Shown: positions 37,355 to 44,419 of the stretch, piece after piece
How the letters are laid out: each line of letters starts with the position of its first letter
Position numbering within the stretch: the first letter of the stretch is position 1
Source: Phycisphaerae bacterium
Lineage (GTDB): Bacteria; Planctomycetota; Phycisphaerae; UBA1845
Direction of reading: 5' to 3'
DNA length: 44,628 nucleotides
Assembly (NCBI GenBank): GCA_030429365.1
Contig: JAUIEW010000008.1
Location: 1-44,628 of the forward strand
Made by a program: the position numbers and the translations under genes
Notes under the pieces: model-generated
The model's input: the letters and a program-made list of their open reading frames with translations, nothing else
Database searches by the model: none
Told to the model about the DNA's origin: nothing

Positions 37355-37783
37355 ATGTCCAGACTACGAGCCAAGACCAAAGCGTTTACGTTGGTCGAAG
37401 TCTTGATTGTTGTCATCGTGCTTGGAATCCTTGCTGCGATTGTTGTTCCGCAGTTCTCGACGGCATCGGGTGACGCCAATCTCAGTGCACTCACCACGAA
37501 CCTCCAGACGATCCGCGCTCAAATCGAACTCTATCGATTGCAGCACAACGATACCTATCCGACGCTGGCGAGTTTTGTAGCCCAGATGACGGCAGGTACC
37601 AAGGTGGACGGAACGGCTGGCACGGATTTCGGACCGTATCTGCTGTCGATTCCTCCCAACCCTTTCAGCGGTGTCTCGACGGTGACCAATACAGGTACGC
37701 CGGCATCCACGCTGGGGTGGTACTACAATGAATCGACGGGTCAGTTCGCCGCGAATGACTCGGTCGCCCACAAAGCGCTCTAG
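37355..37783 (+). CDS. Type IV prepilin / GspG-like pseudopilin
   Basis: The 142-residue protein starts behind the strong site AGGAGAG. The class III signal reads KTKA|FTLVEVLIVVIVLGIL: prepilin peptidase cleavage would follow Ala10, and Glu15 is the conserved Glu5 of the mature pilin. The -1 residue is Ala rather than the usual Gly. The long N-terminal helix continues to residue 60, followed by a small C-terminal domain (NTGTPASTLGWYYNESTGQF). It would be the major subunit of a type II secretion pseudopilus or a pilus. The 260 bases ahead of it hold no element I can support. Confidence 0.92.
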   Translation: MSRLRAKTKAFTLVEVLIVVIVLGILAAIVVPQFSTASGDANLSALTTNLQTIRAQIELYRLQHNDTYPTLASFVAQMTAGTKVDGTAGTDFGPYLLSIPPNPFSGVSTVTNTGTPASTLGWYYNESTGQFAANDSVAHKAL

Positions 37784-37975
37784 CATCGCCTGGCGTTCAA
37801 TCAATCATCGTGCCGCAGCCAACCCGGCGTTTCCTTTGTCAGGATCGCGCCAAGTTGGCGGCGGCATTTTTTGTAAATTGGCAGGTTCTTCTCTGAACAA
37901 TACGGGCGGCGGATGGTGTCGTGTCGCCCGGATCGTCCGAATGGGGCCACAACCTGTGGTGGGAGGCGTTTAACG

Positions 37976-38275
37976 ATGACAGAACAAACGAAGCGACCGG
38001 GTCGGCGATTTTTGCGCGTTTTGCTGGGCGCGGTTCTCGTCGCAACGTGCGTGAAAGTCTGGTTGGGACCCTCAACCGCGATTCCAACCGCCCAAGCCCA
38101 GATTCCCAATGCCGGAAATCAGCGGCTTCAGTTGGTCAACGAGGTCCGAAAATCAAACGAGTTATTGGCTCAAATCGCCCTGATTCTGAAGTCGCAGACG
38201 CTCAAAGTTGAAGTTCAGGGTACCGATAAAACCAATGTAGGTCGATTGCGCCGACCAACGGGTCAGCGCCCATAG
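37976..38275 (+). CDS. Small exported protein in the pilus cluster
   Basis: The 99-residue protein starts at ATG 37976 with GGGAGG 9 bases upstream. A basic N-terminus and hydrophobic stretch (FLRVLLGAVLVATCVKVWLG) are followed by a helix with Leu/Ile heptads (QRLQLVNEVRKSNELLAQIA, LILKSQTLKVEVQ) and a basic tail. I have no name for it. Similar small proteins with a NEVRKSNELL-like helix occur in planctomycetes as hypotheticals. Its position between prepilin and PilM suggests a part in the machine, perhaps periplasmic. Confidence 0.65.
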   Translation: MTEQTKRPGRRFLRVLLGAVLVATCVKVWLGPSTAIPTAQAQIPNAGNQRLQLVNEVRKSNELLAQIALILKSQTLKVEVQGTDKTNVGRLRRPTGQRP

Positions 38276-38324: not shown

Positions 38325-39413
38325 TTGAGAGGCCGCTCATACAACGCGGGTCCAATTGGCTTGGATATCGCTGCGCGCGCTATACGGGCTGTCCAACTCA
38401 AACGATCGCGCTCAGGCTTTGAACTTGTTGCCCACGCCCAGGTCGACGTCAACCCAGCCGACATCGAAGACGAAGATCGCGTGCATGAACATATCAAATC
38501 GATCCTCGCCACTCGGGGATTCGTGGGGCGCAAGGTTGCGATCTGCATTCCGGATCGGTCGCTCGAAGTCAAGAATCTGCGGATGCCTCAAATGCCGGAA
38601 TCCGAACTGGCAGATGCCGCCCTCTTCGAAGCTCGCGAACGGTTCGTCAATCTGCGCAATGGCTACATGATTCGTGCGTTGCCCGCCGGTCTGGTCGGGG
38701 CAGATTCAAATGCGCAGCAGGAATTGATCGTGTTGGCCGCGCCCGAACAGGCCATCGAAACGCGATTGAAAACCATGATGAAGCTGGGGGTGCAGGTCAC
38801 CAGCATTGAACCGACCGCCACTGCCTTCTTCCGCCCGTACGAACAATCCCTGCGCCGAAGTTCCGACGCCAACGTGCCCAACGCATTTGTCGACATTGGC
38901 GAATGGAATACGCGCGTTTTGATTTCGTGCGGCGATGACATTGCGTTCTTGAAGATTTGCCCGATCGGAGGATCTCACTTCGATACGGCGATCGCGAAGG
39001 ATCTGGTGTTGCCAGCGCCCGACGCAAGCAAGGCGCGACTGCAACTACTGACGAGCGGTGATCCGCAACACGCGGACTCAGCCACCCAAGCAGCGCGAGG
39101 GGCGATCAAGACGGTTGTGGAGCAACTGGCGAAGGAGATTTCGCTTTGTCTGCGGTACTACTCGGTGACTTTCCGGGCGGAACGACCGGAGTACGTGACC
39201 ATCGCCGGTGATTCGGCAAACCCGATTGTCGCAGAACTCATGACGGAATCGCTGCGCGTACCGGTTCATGTAGGGAAAGCGTTTAGCGCGGGCTCGTGTG
39301 CTTGTGCCGTTGAATCGATGGACCTGGATTCGGGATTGCCTCAGTGGACCACAGCGCTGGGCTTGGCGATGAACGACGACCGCGTGGGGGCAGGGCGGAA
39401 GGTGGCGTCATGA
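38325..39413 (+). CDS. pilM: PilM-like pilus assembly protein
   Basis: The 362-residue protein starts with TTG 38325, the only usable start in this frame. It is an actin-like ATPase-fold protein: GPIGLDIAARAIRAVQLKR at the start, RKVAICIPDRSLEVKNLRMP, APEQAIETRLKTMMKLGVQV, PNAFVDIGEWNTRVLISCGD and PEYVTIAGDSANPIVAEL. PilM sits in the cytoplasm and binds the PilN tail in type IV pilus systems. Its TGA overlaps the ATG of the next gene (ATGA). Confidence 0.85.
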   Translation: MRGRSYNAGPIGLDIAARAIRAVQLKRSRSGFELVAHAQVDVNPADIEDEDRVHEHIKSILATRGFVGRKVAICIPDRSLEVKNLRMPQMPESELADAALFEARERFVNLRNGYMIRALPAGLVGADSNAQQELIVLAAPEQAIETRLKTMMKLGVQVTSIEPTATAFFRPYEQSLRRSSDANVPNAFVDIGEWNTRVLISCGDDIAFLKICPIGGSHFDTAIAKDLVLPAPDASKARLQLLTSGDPQHADSATQAARGAIKTVVEQLAKEISLCLRYYSVTFRAERPEYVTIAGDSANPIVAELMTESLRVPVHVGKAFSAGSCACAVESMDLDSGLPQWTTALGLAMNDDRVGAGRKVAS

Positions 39414-40021
39414 GGTCCATCGACTTTACACCGCAGTGGTATCTCGACGTCCGCCGCGAGTACCGTTCGTCGCGCAGTCGCGTGATTGGACTGCTCGTCG
39501 TCTTGGGGCTGGTGATATCCGGCGGGGTACTCGCCGCTTCAGATTCGAAAGCGGCGATGGCCGACCTGACCGTGCTGCGTCAAAGCTATTACGCCCAGTC
39601 CGGATTGGTTGAGCGTCTCGACGCGTTGGATCGTAATCACGCTGCAAGCGCCCACCGCGCTGACATGCTTGACGATGCCGCTGGCGGCGTACTCGTCGCG
39701 CAGGTATTTCGCGAAATTGCCCAGTTGATGCCCGAGGCGCTGAGCGTTCGGCGGGTCGTTCTGCACAAGTCGCCGCGATTCAGCGTGAAGTTGGATGAGT
39801 TGACTGAGATTCCCAAGGATATCGATCGAGTGCCTGAAGTGACGCGCCTCGAGATTTCGGGATTCGCACAAAAAGGACGCGACATCGGAAGTCTGGTCAG
39901 CCAGATGAGCCGGTCGGCTCTGTTTTACGACGTTCAGTTGCGATACGAGCGGTCCAATCGTGAGTTCGGTGTGGAAGTTGTCGAGTTCGTGGTCGACTGC
40001 AAGATGCCGGTGTTTGAATGA
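39410..40021 (+). CDS. pilN: PilN-like inner-membrane pilus assembly protein
   Basis: The 203-residue protein has a short cytoplasmic tail (SIDFTPQWYLDVRREYRSSR) that would be the PilM-binding part, one membrane span (residues about 25-44, VIGLLVVLGLVISGGVLA), a coiled-coil-like stretch and an alpha/beta C-terminal domain (VREIAQLMPEALS-like region, VTRLEISGFAQKGRDIGSLV). The ATG overlaps the pilM stop and the gene overlaps pilO in the same way. The order PilM-PilN-PilO supports the name more than sequence does. Confidence 0.8.
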   Translation: MRSIDFTPQWYLDVRREYRSSRSRVIGLLVVLGLVISGGVLAASDSKAAMADLTVLRQSYYAQSGLVERLDALDRNHAASAHRADMLDDAAGGVLVAQVFREIAQLMPEALSVRRVVLHKSPRFSVKLDELTEIPKDIDRVPEVTRLEISGFAQKGRDIGSLVSQMSRSALFYDVQLRYERSNREFGVEVVEFVVDCKMPVFE

Positions 40022-40560
40022 TGCAAGACAAGAAGCTTGTCGGAAAGCCCATTCACATTGCCCTGGGTACGATCGCCTTTGCGGCGATCTTTGCAGCCGG
40101 GGTCGTGGCACCGCACGTGCGTCATATGAGATCGGTCAAGCAGGGCGTCGCAACAGTGCAGGCTGATTTGCTGGTGCTGGGTTCGCGCATTGATCGAGCC
40201 CGAAAGGTATTTGAGGCGACGCGCGACAAGAACAAGGCGATTGCTTCGTTCGACGCCGCGATTCCCGACCGAGTTCAGCTCGGCGAATTCTTGGAGGCGG
40301 TCGATCGGTTGGCGCAGGAAGCCGGGGTGTCGGATAAGGACGTGACGCCGGCGGACGCCATCATGCAAAAGGACTTTGGATGTCTGCCGATTCAGATTCG
40401 ATTTACGGGCAAATTCGCCGCGGTGTACGAGTTTCTCGACAAGGTAGAGCGGTTGCCACGCGTTGCACGGATTCAGCAGTTGGAGTTGAGCGCGGATGAC
40501 GATCTGCCGGACGAGCTCGTTTCGACCATGACGCTACACGTTTACTTCAGGAACAGTTAG
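40018..40560 (+). CDS. pilO: PilO-like inner-membrane pilus assembly protein
   Basis: The 180-residue protein has one membrane span near the N-terminus (HIALGTIAFAAIFAAGVVAP), a coiled-coil (KQGVATVQADLLVLGSRIDR) and a C-terminal domain (CLPIQIRFTGKFAAVYEFLD, LPRVARIQQLELSADD) typical of PilO/GspM-type proteins, which dimerise with PilN in the periplasm. Two consecutive ATG codons (40018 and 40021) are possible starts; the first overlaps the pilN stop. The fold is inferred from pattern and order. Confidence 0.8.
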   Translation: MMQDKKLVGKPIHIALGTIAFAAIFAAGVVAPHVRHMRSVKQGVATVQADLLVLGSRIDRARKVFEATRDKNKAIASFDAAIPDRVQLGEFLEAVDRLAQEAGVSDKDVTPADAIMQKDFGCLPIQIRFTGKFAAVYEFLDKVERLPRVARIQQLELSADDDLPDELVSTMTLHVYFRNS

Positions 40561-40574
40561 GCGAGAGAGCGCGC

Positions 40575-41096
40575 GTGCCCAACGCTGGCGGAAACATCAA
40601 AGCAGTCGTCGTGACCAACCTGAAGGCTTCGCCTGCCAAGTCGGCGATCCTGTTGGCGGGTATTGTTGTGTTGGCCGTACTGATTGCGAGGCAAGTGTGG
40701 GGCGGTCCCAGCGAGGCGGAGGCGGAGATTGCCGCACCCGGGGTGACCTTGGTCGATCCCGACACGGTCGAAAGCAGTGAACCTGTCGTCAAACCAGTGG
40801 TTCGCGTGCCCAAGCCCCGCATCGTTGAGGCCCTGGTTCGCGACCCCTTTGCGGTCGACTGGCTGGATCTCAGCAAGCTGGTGCTCAGTGAAGAGGAAGT
40901 CGAAGCCGAAGACGACGTGCTTCAGTTGCAATTGACGTTGACGGGAACAGATGAGGACGGGCAAGCGACAGCCGTCGTGTCGGGAACGGTCGTCCATGTG
41001 GGTGACCGAATCGCCGGATTTGTGATTGATCGAATAGGCAAACGCTCCGTGGTGCTGCGTAAGGGCTCGGAGAAACTCAAGCTGCGAATGCCGTAA
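40575..41096 (+). CDS. PilP/GspC-like periplasmic linker protein
   Basis: The 173-residue protein begins with GTG 40575 behind a GAGAG site. A membrane span (residues about 22-40, KSAILLAGIVVLAVLIARQV) is followed by a linker with many Glu/Pro/Val residues, then a small beta domain (LQLQLTLTGTDEDGQATAVV, GTVVHVGDRIAGFVIDRIGK) like the HR/PilP domain that binds the secretin in other systems. It is 14 bases after pilO. A GspC-type function, linking inner membrane and secretin, is likely. Name is by order and domain. Confidence 0.65.
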   Translation: MPNAGGNIKAVVVTNLKASPAKSAILLAGIVVLAVLIARQVWGGPSEAEAEIAAPGVTLVDPDTVESSEPVVKPVVRVPKPRIVEALVRDPFAVDWLDLSKLVLSEEEVEAEDDVLQLQLTLTGTDEDGQATAVVSGTVVHVGDRIAGFVIDRIGKRSVVLRKGSEKLKLRMP

Positions 41097-41166: not shown

Positions 41167-43134
41167 ATGGCAAGAAGACATCGGTGGTTTTGGAACGGAA
41201 TCCTGACCGCACTTGGTTTGTCGATCATGATGATCGACGTAGCCAGCGCAGAAGAGCCTCCGGATCCGATCGCCCAGACCGTCAAGAAGTTGATGGACTC
41301 AAACCAAACTGGCGACGGCGATGATGATCGACGCCCGGGTGGGACACCGTCCCGAACGGGCCAAGAGACATTGACCGGTGATCCCTTGCCCCAAGCGACG
41401 AGTCAGCCCGTCGATGTGTCGGCGGCGGAAGTGTCGGTGTCCGATTCGGGCACAGTGACGCTGAACATCGTGGACCTGCCACTGAACACGGTGCTGCGGG
41501 TGCTGTCGCTGGAGACGAATCGCAACATCATTGCGACGCCGTCGGTGCAGGGAACCGTCAACGCAAGCCTTCACAACGTCACATTTGAAGATGCCCTCGA
41601 AGCAATCCTGGCGATGAACCAGGCATCGTTTCGCGCGCAAGGCAACTTCATCTACGTCTACACGCAAGCGGAGTTGGATGAAATCATCGCATCGGAGAAC
41701 CCGCCGATTTCGCGCGTGTTTCGTCTCAACTATGCAAGGGCTGCGGATATTGAACCCGCGATTACATCGCTTCTGTCGTCTGTCGGAACACTGTCGGCAT
41801 CAGCCGAAACCGAGACTGGAATCGGCACAGACAGTGACAATGCCGGGGCGATGTCGCTGGCTTCGACCGACTACATTGTCGTCCACGACCGCCAGGAAAA
41901 CATCGACCGCATCGAGCAGGTGATTCGCGAGTTGGATGTTCGACCGCGCCAGGTTCTGATTGAAACCACCATCCTCAGCGCGGAACTGACCGACGATAAC
42001 GCATTGGGTATCGATTTCGCGGCTGTCGGAGGCGTGGACCTGGAACTGCTGGGATCAACGTCGGTGGCCGTGCAAGACATCAATATCGGTCAGCTTCCGA
42101 CCGATCGCTTCGAGAAATTCAATGCCAACATCTCAACGGACCTGACGGGCAACGTGCCCAATGGTGGGCTTTCAATCGGCGTGATCAAGGATCACGTCGC
42201 CGTTTTTGTCCGGGCGTTGGAGCAGATCACCGACACGACGGTGATTGCCAACCCGAAAGTGCTCGCCCTCAACAAGCAGAAGGGCTCGGTTGTCGTTGGC
42301 CGGCGCGACGGTTACATCACGACGACGGTCACCGAGACGCAGGCGATTCAAACGGTTGAGTTTCTTGTGACCGGTACGCAACTTCGCTTCCGTCCCTTCA
42401 TTGGTAACGACGGCTTCGTGCGCATGGAGCTTCACCCCGAAGACAGCACCGGTGGACTCAACGCAGCCAACTTGCCCTTCGAGCAGACCACCGAAGTCAC
42501 CACCAACGTCATCGTGCAGGATGGACAAACGATTCTGATCGGTGGACTGTTCCGCGAAACCGATACGGACACGCGCTCGCAGCTTCCGGGTCTGGGCGAT
42601 ATCCCAGGTGTTGGCGAGTTGTTCAAATCGCGTTCCGACTCAATGACACGCCAGGAAGTCATCGTGCTGCTGACGGTCAAAATCGTCAAGGACTTCGATG
42701 CGTACGCCCGCCAGAGCTGGGAACAAGCCGAAGACATCGAGCGGCTTCGCGTTGGGCTCCGTGAGGGGCAGATGTGGCATGGCCGCGAGCGGTTGGCGCA
42801 AAACGCTTACAAGACAGCGTTGGAGTGCTTCGCTGCGGGTGATTACGACGACGCGTTGTGGCACGTGCGCATGGCGCTGCATCACTCACCGCGCATGTTG
42901 TCGGCGATCAAACTTCAGGAAGAGTTGCGGGGCATGCGCGACTGGGACGATGACGGGACCGCGACGCGCAGCTTCATTCACGACGCGATCATGCAGGATC
43001 GTGGGGTTCGCATGCCGATGTACGATCGGCCCGCGCCGCCATTTGTCCGACCCGAAGCGCTACCAGAACCGGACGAATATGAACCAGTCGATGACGAGAT
43101 GGGAATCATGATCATGGAGGCGATCGATGAATAG
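41167..43134 (+). CDS. Secretin with TPR-like C-terminal extension
   Basis: The 655-residue protein starts behind AAGGAG. Residues 1-26 are a signal peptide. N-terminal short domains follow (VTLNIVDLPLNTVLRVLSLE; RVFRLNYARAADIEPAITSL), then the secretin core to about residue 508: RQVLIETTILSAELTDDNAL, GALEQITDTTVIANPKVLAL-type pore region, VTTNVIVQDGQTILIGGLFR, QLPGLGDIPGVGELFKSRSD and RQEVIVLLTVKIV. It forms the outer-membrane channel. Unusual is the 147-residue C-terminal part after the core, with a TPR-like pair at 546-575 (AYKTALECFAAGDYDDALWH) and an acidic end. The PilP-like gene is upstream, the TPR lipoprotein overlaps it. Confidence 0.93.
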   Translation: MARRHRWFWNGILTALGLSIMMIDVASAEEPPDPIAQTVKKLMDSNQTGDGDDDRRPGGTPSRTGQETLTGDPLPQATSQPVDVSAAEVSVSDSGTVTLNIVDLPLNTVLRVLSLETNRNIIATPSVQGTVNASLHNVTFEDALEAILAMNQASFRAQGNFIYVYTQAELDEIIASENPPISRVFRLNYARAADIEPAITSLLSSVGTLSASAETETGIGTDSDNAGAMSLASTDYIVVHDRQENIDRIEQVIRELDVRPRQVLIETTILSAELTDDNALGIDFAAVGGVDLELLGSTSVAVQDINIGQLPTDRFEKFNANISTDLTGNVPNGGLSIGVIKDHVAVFVRALEQITDTTVIANPKVLALNKQKGSVVVGRRDGYITTTVTETQAIQTVEFLVTGTQLRFRPFIGNDGFVRMELHPEDSTGGLNAANLPFEQTTEVTTNVIVQDGQTILIGGLFRETDTDTRSQLPGLGDIPGVGELFKSRSDSMTRQEVIVLLTVKIVKDFDAYARQSWEQAEDIERLRVGLREGQMWHGRERLAQNAYKTALECFAAGDYDDALWHVRMALHHSPRMLSAIKLQEELRGMRDWDDDGTATRSFIHDAIMQDRGVRMPMYDRPAPPFVRPEALPEPDEYEPVDDEMGIMIMEAIDE

Positions 43135-44419
43135 AGAAACATCCACCATCCGATTGGCGGTATTTGTCTCCGTTGGAATGGTCGTGGCGCTGGCGGGGGG
43201 ATGCACGGCGAACCATCAGGCCCGTCGCGTCCAAGCCGAACAGCACTGGAACGAAGTGCGCGGCAAGATCAAACTCCAGTTGGCCCGACAGCAATTCGAA
43301 CACGGCCTTGTTGATGAAGCGGTGAGCTATCTCGAGGAATCACTCGGATGGGACACCAAGAATGTTGAAGCGTTCATGCTGTTGGCCGAATGCCGATTGT
43401 CGCAAGGTCGCATCCAGGCGGCGGAGCGAGCGATCGAGCACGCCTACGAGTTGGACAGTCAAAATGCCAAAGTGCTGTCCGTTCGGGCGATGATTGCGGA
43501 GCGGACCAAACGTTTCGCCGATGCGCTTCGGGATTATCGATTGGCCCGCGAGATCGACGACACGGAAGTCAGTTATCTCATTGCGGAAGCCGAATGTCTC
43601 GTGGAGATGGGGCAGGCGGATGAGGCGCTGCGACTTCTCGAAACGACCAAGCTCTATTACGACAACAATCCGAGCCTGCTGGCGCTGTCCGGTGAGATTG
43701 CCCTGAAACTCGGGGACCGGGATTCGGCGGAGCAGGCGTTCCGCGCCGTATTGGCTGCCGGGCACTACACACCGGTGATCGCCGAAGAGTATGCGCTGCT
43801 GGCAGTGCGGTCCCATCGGTTTGCCGAGGCACTCACTGTGTTGCAACCGCTGTTTGACAAACACGGCGATCAGTTGGCGCCGTCGGTTATTCGGGCGGTG
43901 GCCAAGTGCATGCTCGAATTGAATCGACCCGAAGCCGTCAAGATGACGTTGCGCGGCGTGCTCAAGAACAACCCGGACGACTACGCGGCTTGGATTTTAT
44001 TGGCAAAAGCCGGCATCAAGTCGGGCGATATGGGTTCGGCACGCCGCGGCGCGAGTAATGCAGAGCGCTTGGCGCCGAGCGACCCGCAAACGCTTTTGAT
44101 TTCGGCGTACGTCAAACTGCGCCAGAAGAATTATGTGGCGGCCAGTCGGGCGCTGGACAAACTCATCGCGCAAAATGATCGCGACGTATTGGCCCATTGC
44201 CTGCTCGGTTTGGTTTCGTTGAAGACGAAAGACATCGACAAGGCCCGGGCATCCTACGAGCGTGCGTTGGCGATTGATCCCGACTGTCATTGGGCGCGAA
44301 CTGCATTGCAGCGATTGTCAGCTCCCACCCACGTTGAGCCTCCGATTGACGCGTATGGCCAAAAGGACAGGCAGAGCAACGATCACAACGAAGTCGCGAT
44401 GGGCATGAATATCCAATAG
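43127..44419 (+). CDS. TPR lipoprotein of the secretion cluster
   Basis: The 430-residue protein starts at ATG 43127, 8 bases inside the secretin gene, with GGAGG just upstream. The lipobox is LAGGC with Cys26. At least nine tetratricopeptide pairs follow (FEHGLVDEAVSYLEESLGWD, AFMLLAECRLSQGRIQAAER, YLIAEAECLVEMGQADEALR, CLLGLVSLKTKDIDKARASY). By position and layout it matches PilF/PilW-type lipoproteins that help secretin assembly. The end is a low-complexity tail. Confidence 0.85.
   Translation: MNRETSTIRLAVFVSVGMVVALAGGCTANHQARRVQAEQHWNEVRGKIKLQLARQQFEHGLVDEAVSYLEESLGWDTKNVEAFMLLAECRLSQGRIQAAERAIEHAYELDSQNAKVLSVRAMIAERTKRFADALRDYRLAREIDDTEVSYLIAEAECLVEMGQADEALRLLETTKLYYDNNPSLLALSGEIALKLGDRDSAEQAFRAVLAAGHYTPVIAEEYALLAVRSHRFAEALTVLQPLFDKHGDQLAPSVIRAVAKCMLELNRPEAVKMTLRGVLKNNPDDYAAWILLAKAGIKSGDMGSARRGASNAERLAPSDPQTLLISAYVKLRQKNYVAASRALDKLIAQNDRDVLAHCLLGLVSLKTKDIDKARASYERALAIDPDCHWARTALQRLSAPTHVEPPIDAYGQKDRQSNDHNEVAMGMNIQ

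Follow-up and report, generated by a model that had tools for sequence, protein, structure and literature searches.

Why should a secretin end in a segment that resembles a tetratricopeptide repeat (TPR), directly in front of a gene for a TPR lipoprotein? The question is raised by a gene near the end of the stretch of DNA analysed here (the window: 44,628 nucleotides, contig JAUIEW010000008.1 of the Phycisphaerae bacterium assembly GCA_030429365.1), for which an original prediction made from the sequence alone had suggested a built-in pilotin-like arrangement of the two products.

A PilQ-type secretin behind pilus genes

The gene (41167..43134; this and the other window features described here lie on the forward strand) encodes a protein of 655 residues, identified from its ORF, Pfam and NCBIfam. 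Matches to PF00263, PF03958 and PF07660, all above their Pfam cut-offs, give it a secretin core together with N0 and N1: the N0 or STN region spans residues 99-166 (41461..41664; Pfam STN at 120-166, with a sub-threshold GspD N0 match at 99-148), Secretin_N (N1) spans residues 182-262 (41710..41952; Pfam), and the core spans residues 350-508 (42214..42690; PF00263, E 5.1e-38, model positions 1-169 of 169). The core thus ends where it had been placed originally, at the full length of the Pfam model, and the 147 residues from 509 to 655 therefore remain as the extension that had been described. The best of all NCBIfam models was IV_pilus_PilQ (TIGR02515), whose 211.7 bits are below its curated cut-off of 284.35; we therefore call the protein PilQ-type rather than PilQ. 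A search of the PDB gave PilQ chains as the closest solved structures, and a full-length AlphaFold2 model matched, among the Foldseek matches listed, secretin and secretin-domain structures only.

The protein has N0, N1 and the secretin core in common with the type IVa PilQ of Neisseria, Pseudomonas, Vibrio and Myxococcus, and PilM/N/O-like genes lie upstream. In contrast to PilQ, no AMIN domain was found in it by Pfam, and matches to solved PilQ chains stop where the extension starts (profile position 423-428 of 564). Upstream, in order, are genes for a type IV pilin-like protein or pseudopilin (37355..37783; N_methyl, E 1.2e-6), PilM (38325..39413; PF11104, E 5.3e-18), PilN, with an uncertain start (39344..40021; PF05137, E 9.3e-8), PilO (40018..40560; PF04350, E 2.9e-11) and a 173-residue PilP/GspC-like inner-membrane protein (40575..41096; sub-threshold T2SSB, Y4YQ_C and GspC matches); PilM, PilN and PilO all exceed their Pfam cut-offs. 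Domains and a PilM-PilN-PilO-PilP-like-PilQ gene order together identify the product, at the level of sequence, as the predicted outer-membrane secretin of a type IV pilus-type machine in a planctomycete. The interval from the pilin gene to PilM contains a 120-residue ORF (37913-38272, +) that has relatives in same-genus loci and some others, and no Pfam match.

Fold of the C-terminal extension

The TPR-like helix pair originally described in the extension did not emerge from the single sequence, for which no Pfam TPR model reached its cut-off (Fis1_TPR_C gave E 0.25 and 12 bits against 25.3). Because these single-sequence matches were sub-threshold we used family profiles, and here the helix pair was supported, as it was by AlphaFold2 and by superposition. 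A profile of 68 aligned extensions (A2; of the 69 untruncated rows, A1 and A2 include all but L030, which is close to L025) matched TPR proteins among PDB sequences down to E 3.7e-30; the lowest E-values came from designed TPRs with many repeats, and the natural TPR protein O-GlcNAc transferase was matched at E about 1e-10. These matches fall at profile positions about 38-82 and provide the TPR profile hit that had been named beforehand as a check. A separate profile of out-of-class tails (A3; 46 of 52, leaving out the near copies L113, L118, L121 and L153 as well as L134 and L147, whose tails are the least TPR-like) also matches TPR proteins, and A2 and A3 align with each other over 103 columns at a probability of 98. 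Among individual sequences, TPR_14 was found at E <=0.1 in 8 of the 68 extensions of the A2 set, and TPR_2 at E <=0.01 in 6 of the 46 out-of-class tails.

In the AlphaFold2 model made from the family alignment, the extension begins at residue 509 after a strand at 488-506, which makes it a segment behind the last barrel strand, as S-domains are. Helices are predicted at residues 510-533, 540-556, 560-573 and 578-588, and the same helices appear when the extension is modelled alone. The first (42694..42765; AlphaFold2 and alignment) carries the conserved residues E525, R528, G530 and R532; the second and third form the putative TPR helix pair (42784..42885; AlphaFold2, TPR profile matches and VIA-align to TPR structures), which the fourth would cap (42898..42930; AlphaFold2). 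Block means of pLDDT are 86-96 for residues 541-590, while the C-terminal end is of low confidence: residues 593-655 (42943..43131; block means 42-66) make up a variable, mostly low-confidence acidic tail that differs between relatives. The acidic end noted at the outset is real in the window, with 12 D/E against 2 K/R in the last 40 residues, and is poorly conserved far outside the genus, its length and sequence varying among relatives. Conservation is strongest instead at R528, G530, R532 and R540, ahead of the TPR and at its start; R532 does not vary among the 68 rows of A2, and R528 is conserved at 0.93.

Using VIA-align, model residues 29-86 superpose on TPR structures, best on 7y4i_B (Z 10.3; 57 residues at an rmsd of 0.8 angstrom) and also on PilW (2vq2; Z 8.9; 53 residues at an rmsd of 1.5). 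These Z values are in the range for which the tool urges caution with helical repeats, and Foldseek gave no match to the extension model at E <=0.001 (E-values 0.67 or worse); it is for this reason that the sequence profiles carry the TPR argument. Profiles and models agree on a predicted architecture in which a single TPR is flanked by helices and followed by a loose tail, rather than on a solenoid of several repeats.

Distribution and constraint of the extension

The search of relatives returned a secretin match in 100 of 100 genomes (own genome, genus, family and order). Among the aligned relatives 69 of 71 have the extension, the other two, L027 and L077, being cut by contig ends; homologues with the same core and no extension throughout the clade, the observation that was to count against the original prediction, were thus not what we found. 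Within the genus, extension residues 509-592 are about as constrained as the core (dN 0.028-0.092 against 0.012-0.086, with dS saturated in several pairs). We considered and rejected the extension as a single-genome trait or a frame artefact, given its presence in these relatives and its core-like dN.

A phylum sample contained 41 genomes of the window's class, of which 35 have a close secretin relative (E < 1e-90); the extension is matched in every one of them (E 1.6e-10 or better), and the remaining 6 have distant secretins only. Across all fetched loci, a tail of at least 80 residues is present in 149 of the 151 with a core score of at least 170 bits and an extension-model match (E up to 1) in 137 of them, against 7 and 3, respectively, of the 29 with lower core scores. 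Loci L082-L127 were picked by extension match and are therefore unusable for its frequency; in a fairer set picked by the whole-secretin model (L132-L171), whose ranking is not fully independent because that model contains the extension, 38 of 39 secretins with a core score of at least 170 bits have a tail of at least 80 residues, and 25 of 39 have an extension match at E <=1. Two secretins with high core scores stand out, L147 with a 56-residue tail and no recognisable TPR, and L134 with a tail that is cut by the contig end and not TPR-like in its visible part. No extension match was found in 20 distant phylum secretins (L172-L191) or in the five other secretins, paralogues, of the own genome. 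In a quick tree of the core sequences of 104 secretins, which has long branches and an unsure outer part, one branch (SH-aLRT 93) comprises 78 rows, every one of them with a tail of at least 80 residues and 69 with an extension match. The extension marks one secretin clade across Planctomycetota.

The same searches brought up secretins of other kinds. The own genome (C74) encodes a giant secretin of 1731 residues in which a single Secretin domain accompanies 13 Secretin_N stretches (L192:8975-14167, -), and two same-order relatives encode proteins of 4461 residues with 32 Secretin_N (L204:1937-15319, +) and 4928 residues with 26 Secretin_N (L205:760-15543, -); frames of about 4300-4900 residues with a secretin match are open in several further members of the order. 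By their domain content these proteins would point to a stack of periplasmic rings of quite exceptional length. A 767-residue GspD-like secretin of the own genome (L196, C113), with a T2SSE ATPase gene downstream, apparently belongs to a separate type II secretion system. N-terminal TPRs instead are found in secretins L128 and L195; the latter (L195:8012-11317, +; own genome, C330) is a 1102-residue protein with N-terminal TPR matches and a C-terminal core, the layout of Akkermansia Amuc_1098 as far as the accessible account of that protein shows. One record titled 'Alphaproteobacteria bacterium' (L008) has a secretin 84-90% identical to that of the window, and its title is probably wrong.

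The adjacent TPR lipoprotein and the role of the tail

The gene that follows the secretin (43127..44419) encodes a candidate partner, a 430-residue protein with multiple Pfam TPR models and a signal peptide containing LAGGC, which we take to be a lipobox; against NCBIfam PilW it scores 83.8 bits, below the cut-off of 154. Its ORF overlaps that of the secretin by 8 bases, as had been stated from the window alone, and the same overlap occurs in four same-genus loci (L007-L010). The pairing itself is co-conserved with the extension far beyond the own genome: a relative of this lipoprotein gene lies directly downstream of the extended secretin in all 24 named loci and in all 44 loci of the order for which downstream DNA is available, usually with a lipobox, whereas a TPR gene adjoins only 3 of 19 short-tailed secretins, counts that are not independent trials because the samples are related by descent. 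Further class and phylum hits have the downstream TPR gene in 24 of 26 cases; at one of the two exceptions only 303 bases remain, and at the other the reading frame is ambiguous. Outside the class, TPR models match the downstream ORF at 32 of 40 loci, and the tail is kept where the downstream gene is instead one for a STAS-domain protein (5 of 40) or QueG (one locus). STAS-like genes follow the pilus secretin in place of the TPR lipoprotein at L122, L125, L163, L165, L169 and L173, in several out-of-class lineages.

For the downstream proteins we assembled a set (A4) of 40 of 49 ORFs, omitting four near copies and five that looked non-coding. In a profile comparison of extension and lipoprotein, the best match was to the lipoprotein's TPR1 (residues 46-93; probability 90.8). 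A distance correlation of the mirror-tree type gave a partial r of 0.32 for extension and lipoprotein given the core, which does not exceed the 0.37 for core and lipoprotein given the extension. No secretin-lipoprotein fusion stood out on inspection of the ORF lists of the fetched loci.

A C-terminal segment behind the core is likewise found in GspD of type II secretion, whose S-domain works with PulS/AspS pilotins; matches to solved GspD chains extend to profile positions 435-448, slightly beyond the core end, and none reaches the TPR part. According to the accessible part of one study, S-domains bind pilotins, the pilotin recognises the terminal alpha-12 helix of the 62-residue S-domain of EpsD (588-649), and in the GspD-type ExeD the contacts that a helix behind the core makes with the adjacent monomer matter for assembly (PMC6532946). 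A secretin C-terminus and a TPR lipoprotein also form a pair in the Tad system, where, in the accessible text, TadD pilots RcpA by taking its unstructured last residues into a groove (PMC10499894); the end of the window secretin differs in being itself a TPR. The TPR lipoproteins PilF, PilW and Tgl, needed for PilQ multimers, act on a PilQ without a TPR tail, for which the available sections of a further paper propose the beta-lip as partner region, stating that pilotin recognition of the secretin in type IV pili is unknown (PMC10653833). A partial precedent is Akkermansia Amuc_1098, a PilQ with fused TPRs that the accessible text likens to pilotins (PMC4960237), although they are N-terminal there and C-terminal in the window secretin. 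The original remark that no description of the arrangement had been seen holds for the C-terminal arrangement, of which we found none in the literature searched, a body from which subscription papers were largely missing; TPR-PilQ fusions and their likeness to pilotins had already been reported for the Akkermansia N-terminus.

We propose that the folded domain behind the last barrel strand (a long helix, one TPR and a capping helix, followed by a disordered tail), at the position that is the end of proteobacterial PilQ and the site of the S-domain in GspD, would most likely work like an S-domain: it may be the docking site for the TPR lipoprotein of the next gene, which would bind the secretin monomer, help to bring it to the outer membrane and help it to multimerise there. 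Docking is the most economical reading because the tail starts where PilQ matches end and the GspD S-domain sits, S-domains bind pilotins and TPR lipoproteins pilot RcpA and PilQ, as far as the accessible accounts go; the conserved neighbour, the TPR1 match and the core-like constraint on the tail also argue for it. A periplasmic position of the tail, its contact with the lipoprotein and a pilotin role for the latter are each plausible, and we give the proposal as a whole roughly even chances. It has to accommodate the lineages that keep the tail beside STAS or QueG genes, L147 and L134 with their high core scores and no recognisable TPR tail, the three short-tailed secretins that adjoin a TPR gene, and the reports, in the accessible parts of the papers cited above, that known TPR pilotins bind an unstructured peptide, or else the beta-lip, rather than a folded TPR.

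A TPR on its own as a rule requires something to pack against, and the conservation at R528, G530, R532 and R540 is not a generic TPR pattern. Both points suit a ring scaffold, in which the single TPRs of 12-15 neighbouring subunits would pack together, or on another envelope protein, and brace the pore, while the lipoprotein would have another site of action, such as the beta-lip that has been suggested for Tgl. Room for such a scaffold is left by the tail's persistence beside STAS and QueG genes and by a co-divergence signal no stronger than the core's, and the ExeD contacts are in keeping with it; it leaves the near-constant TPR neighbour unexplained, and we consider it possible if rather unlikely. 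A built-in pilotin in the strict sense, with the tail itself replacing a separate pilotin, draws on the PilW-like fold and on the lineages in which the adjacent lipoprotein is absent, yet the tail has one repeat only and no lipid anchor, and almost all relatives retain the separate lipoprotein; this form of the idea is improbable. Least credible by far is an unconstrained C-terminal tail with a chance likeness to TPRs: the sub-threshold Pfam results and the poor Foldseek E-values would fit, but the dN values, the invariant R532 and the agreement of A3 with A2 already contradict it for residues 509-592, which leaves it tenable only for the last part, residues 593-655.

Returning to docking, a more specific and doubtful version would see a Planctomycetota secretin subtype with TPR-on-TPR pilotin recognition, in which the secretin's single repeat, related to the lipoprotein's own first repeat, completes or caps the solenoid of that neighbouring protein, having arisen once by gain of a repeat in the phylum's ancestral pilus secretin. 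The repeat type shared by the secretin end and the neighbouring lipoprotein offers a direct candidate interface for pilotin recognition, and the extension lets the pilus secretin be recognised from its sequence in planctomycete genomes, which have several secretins.
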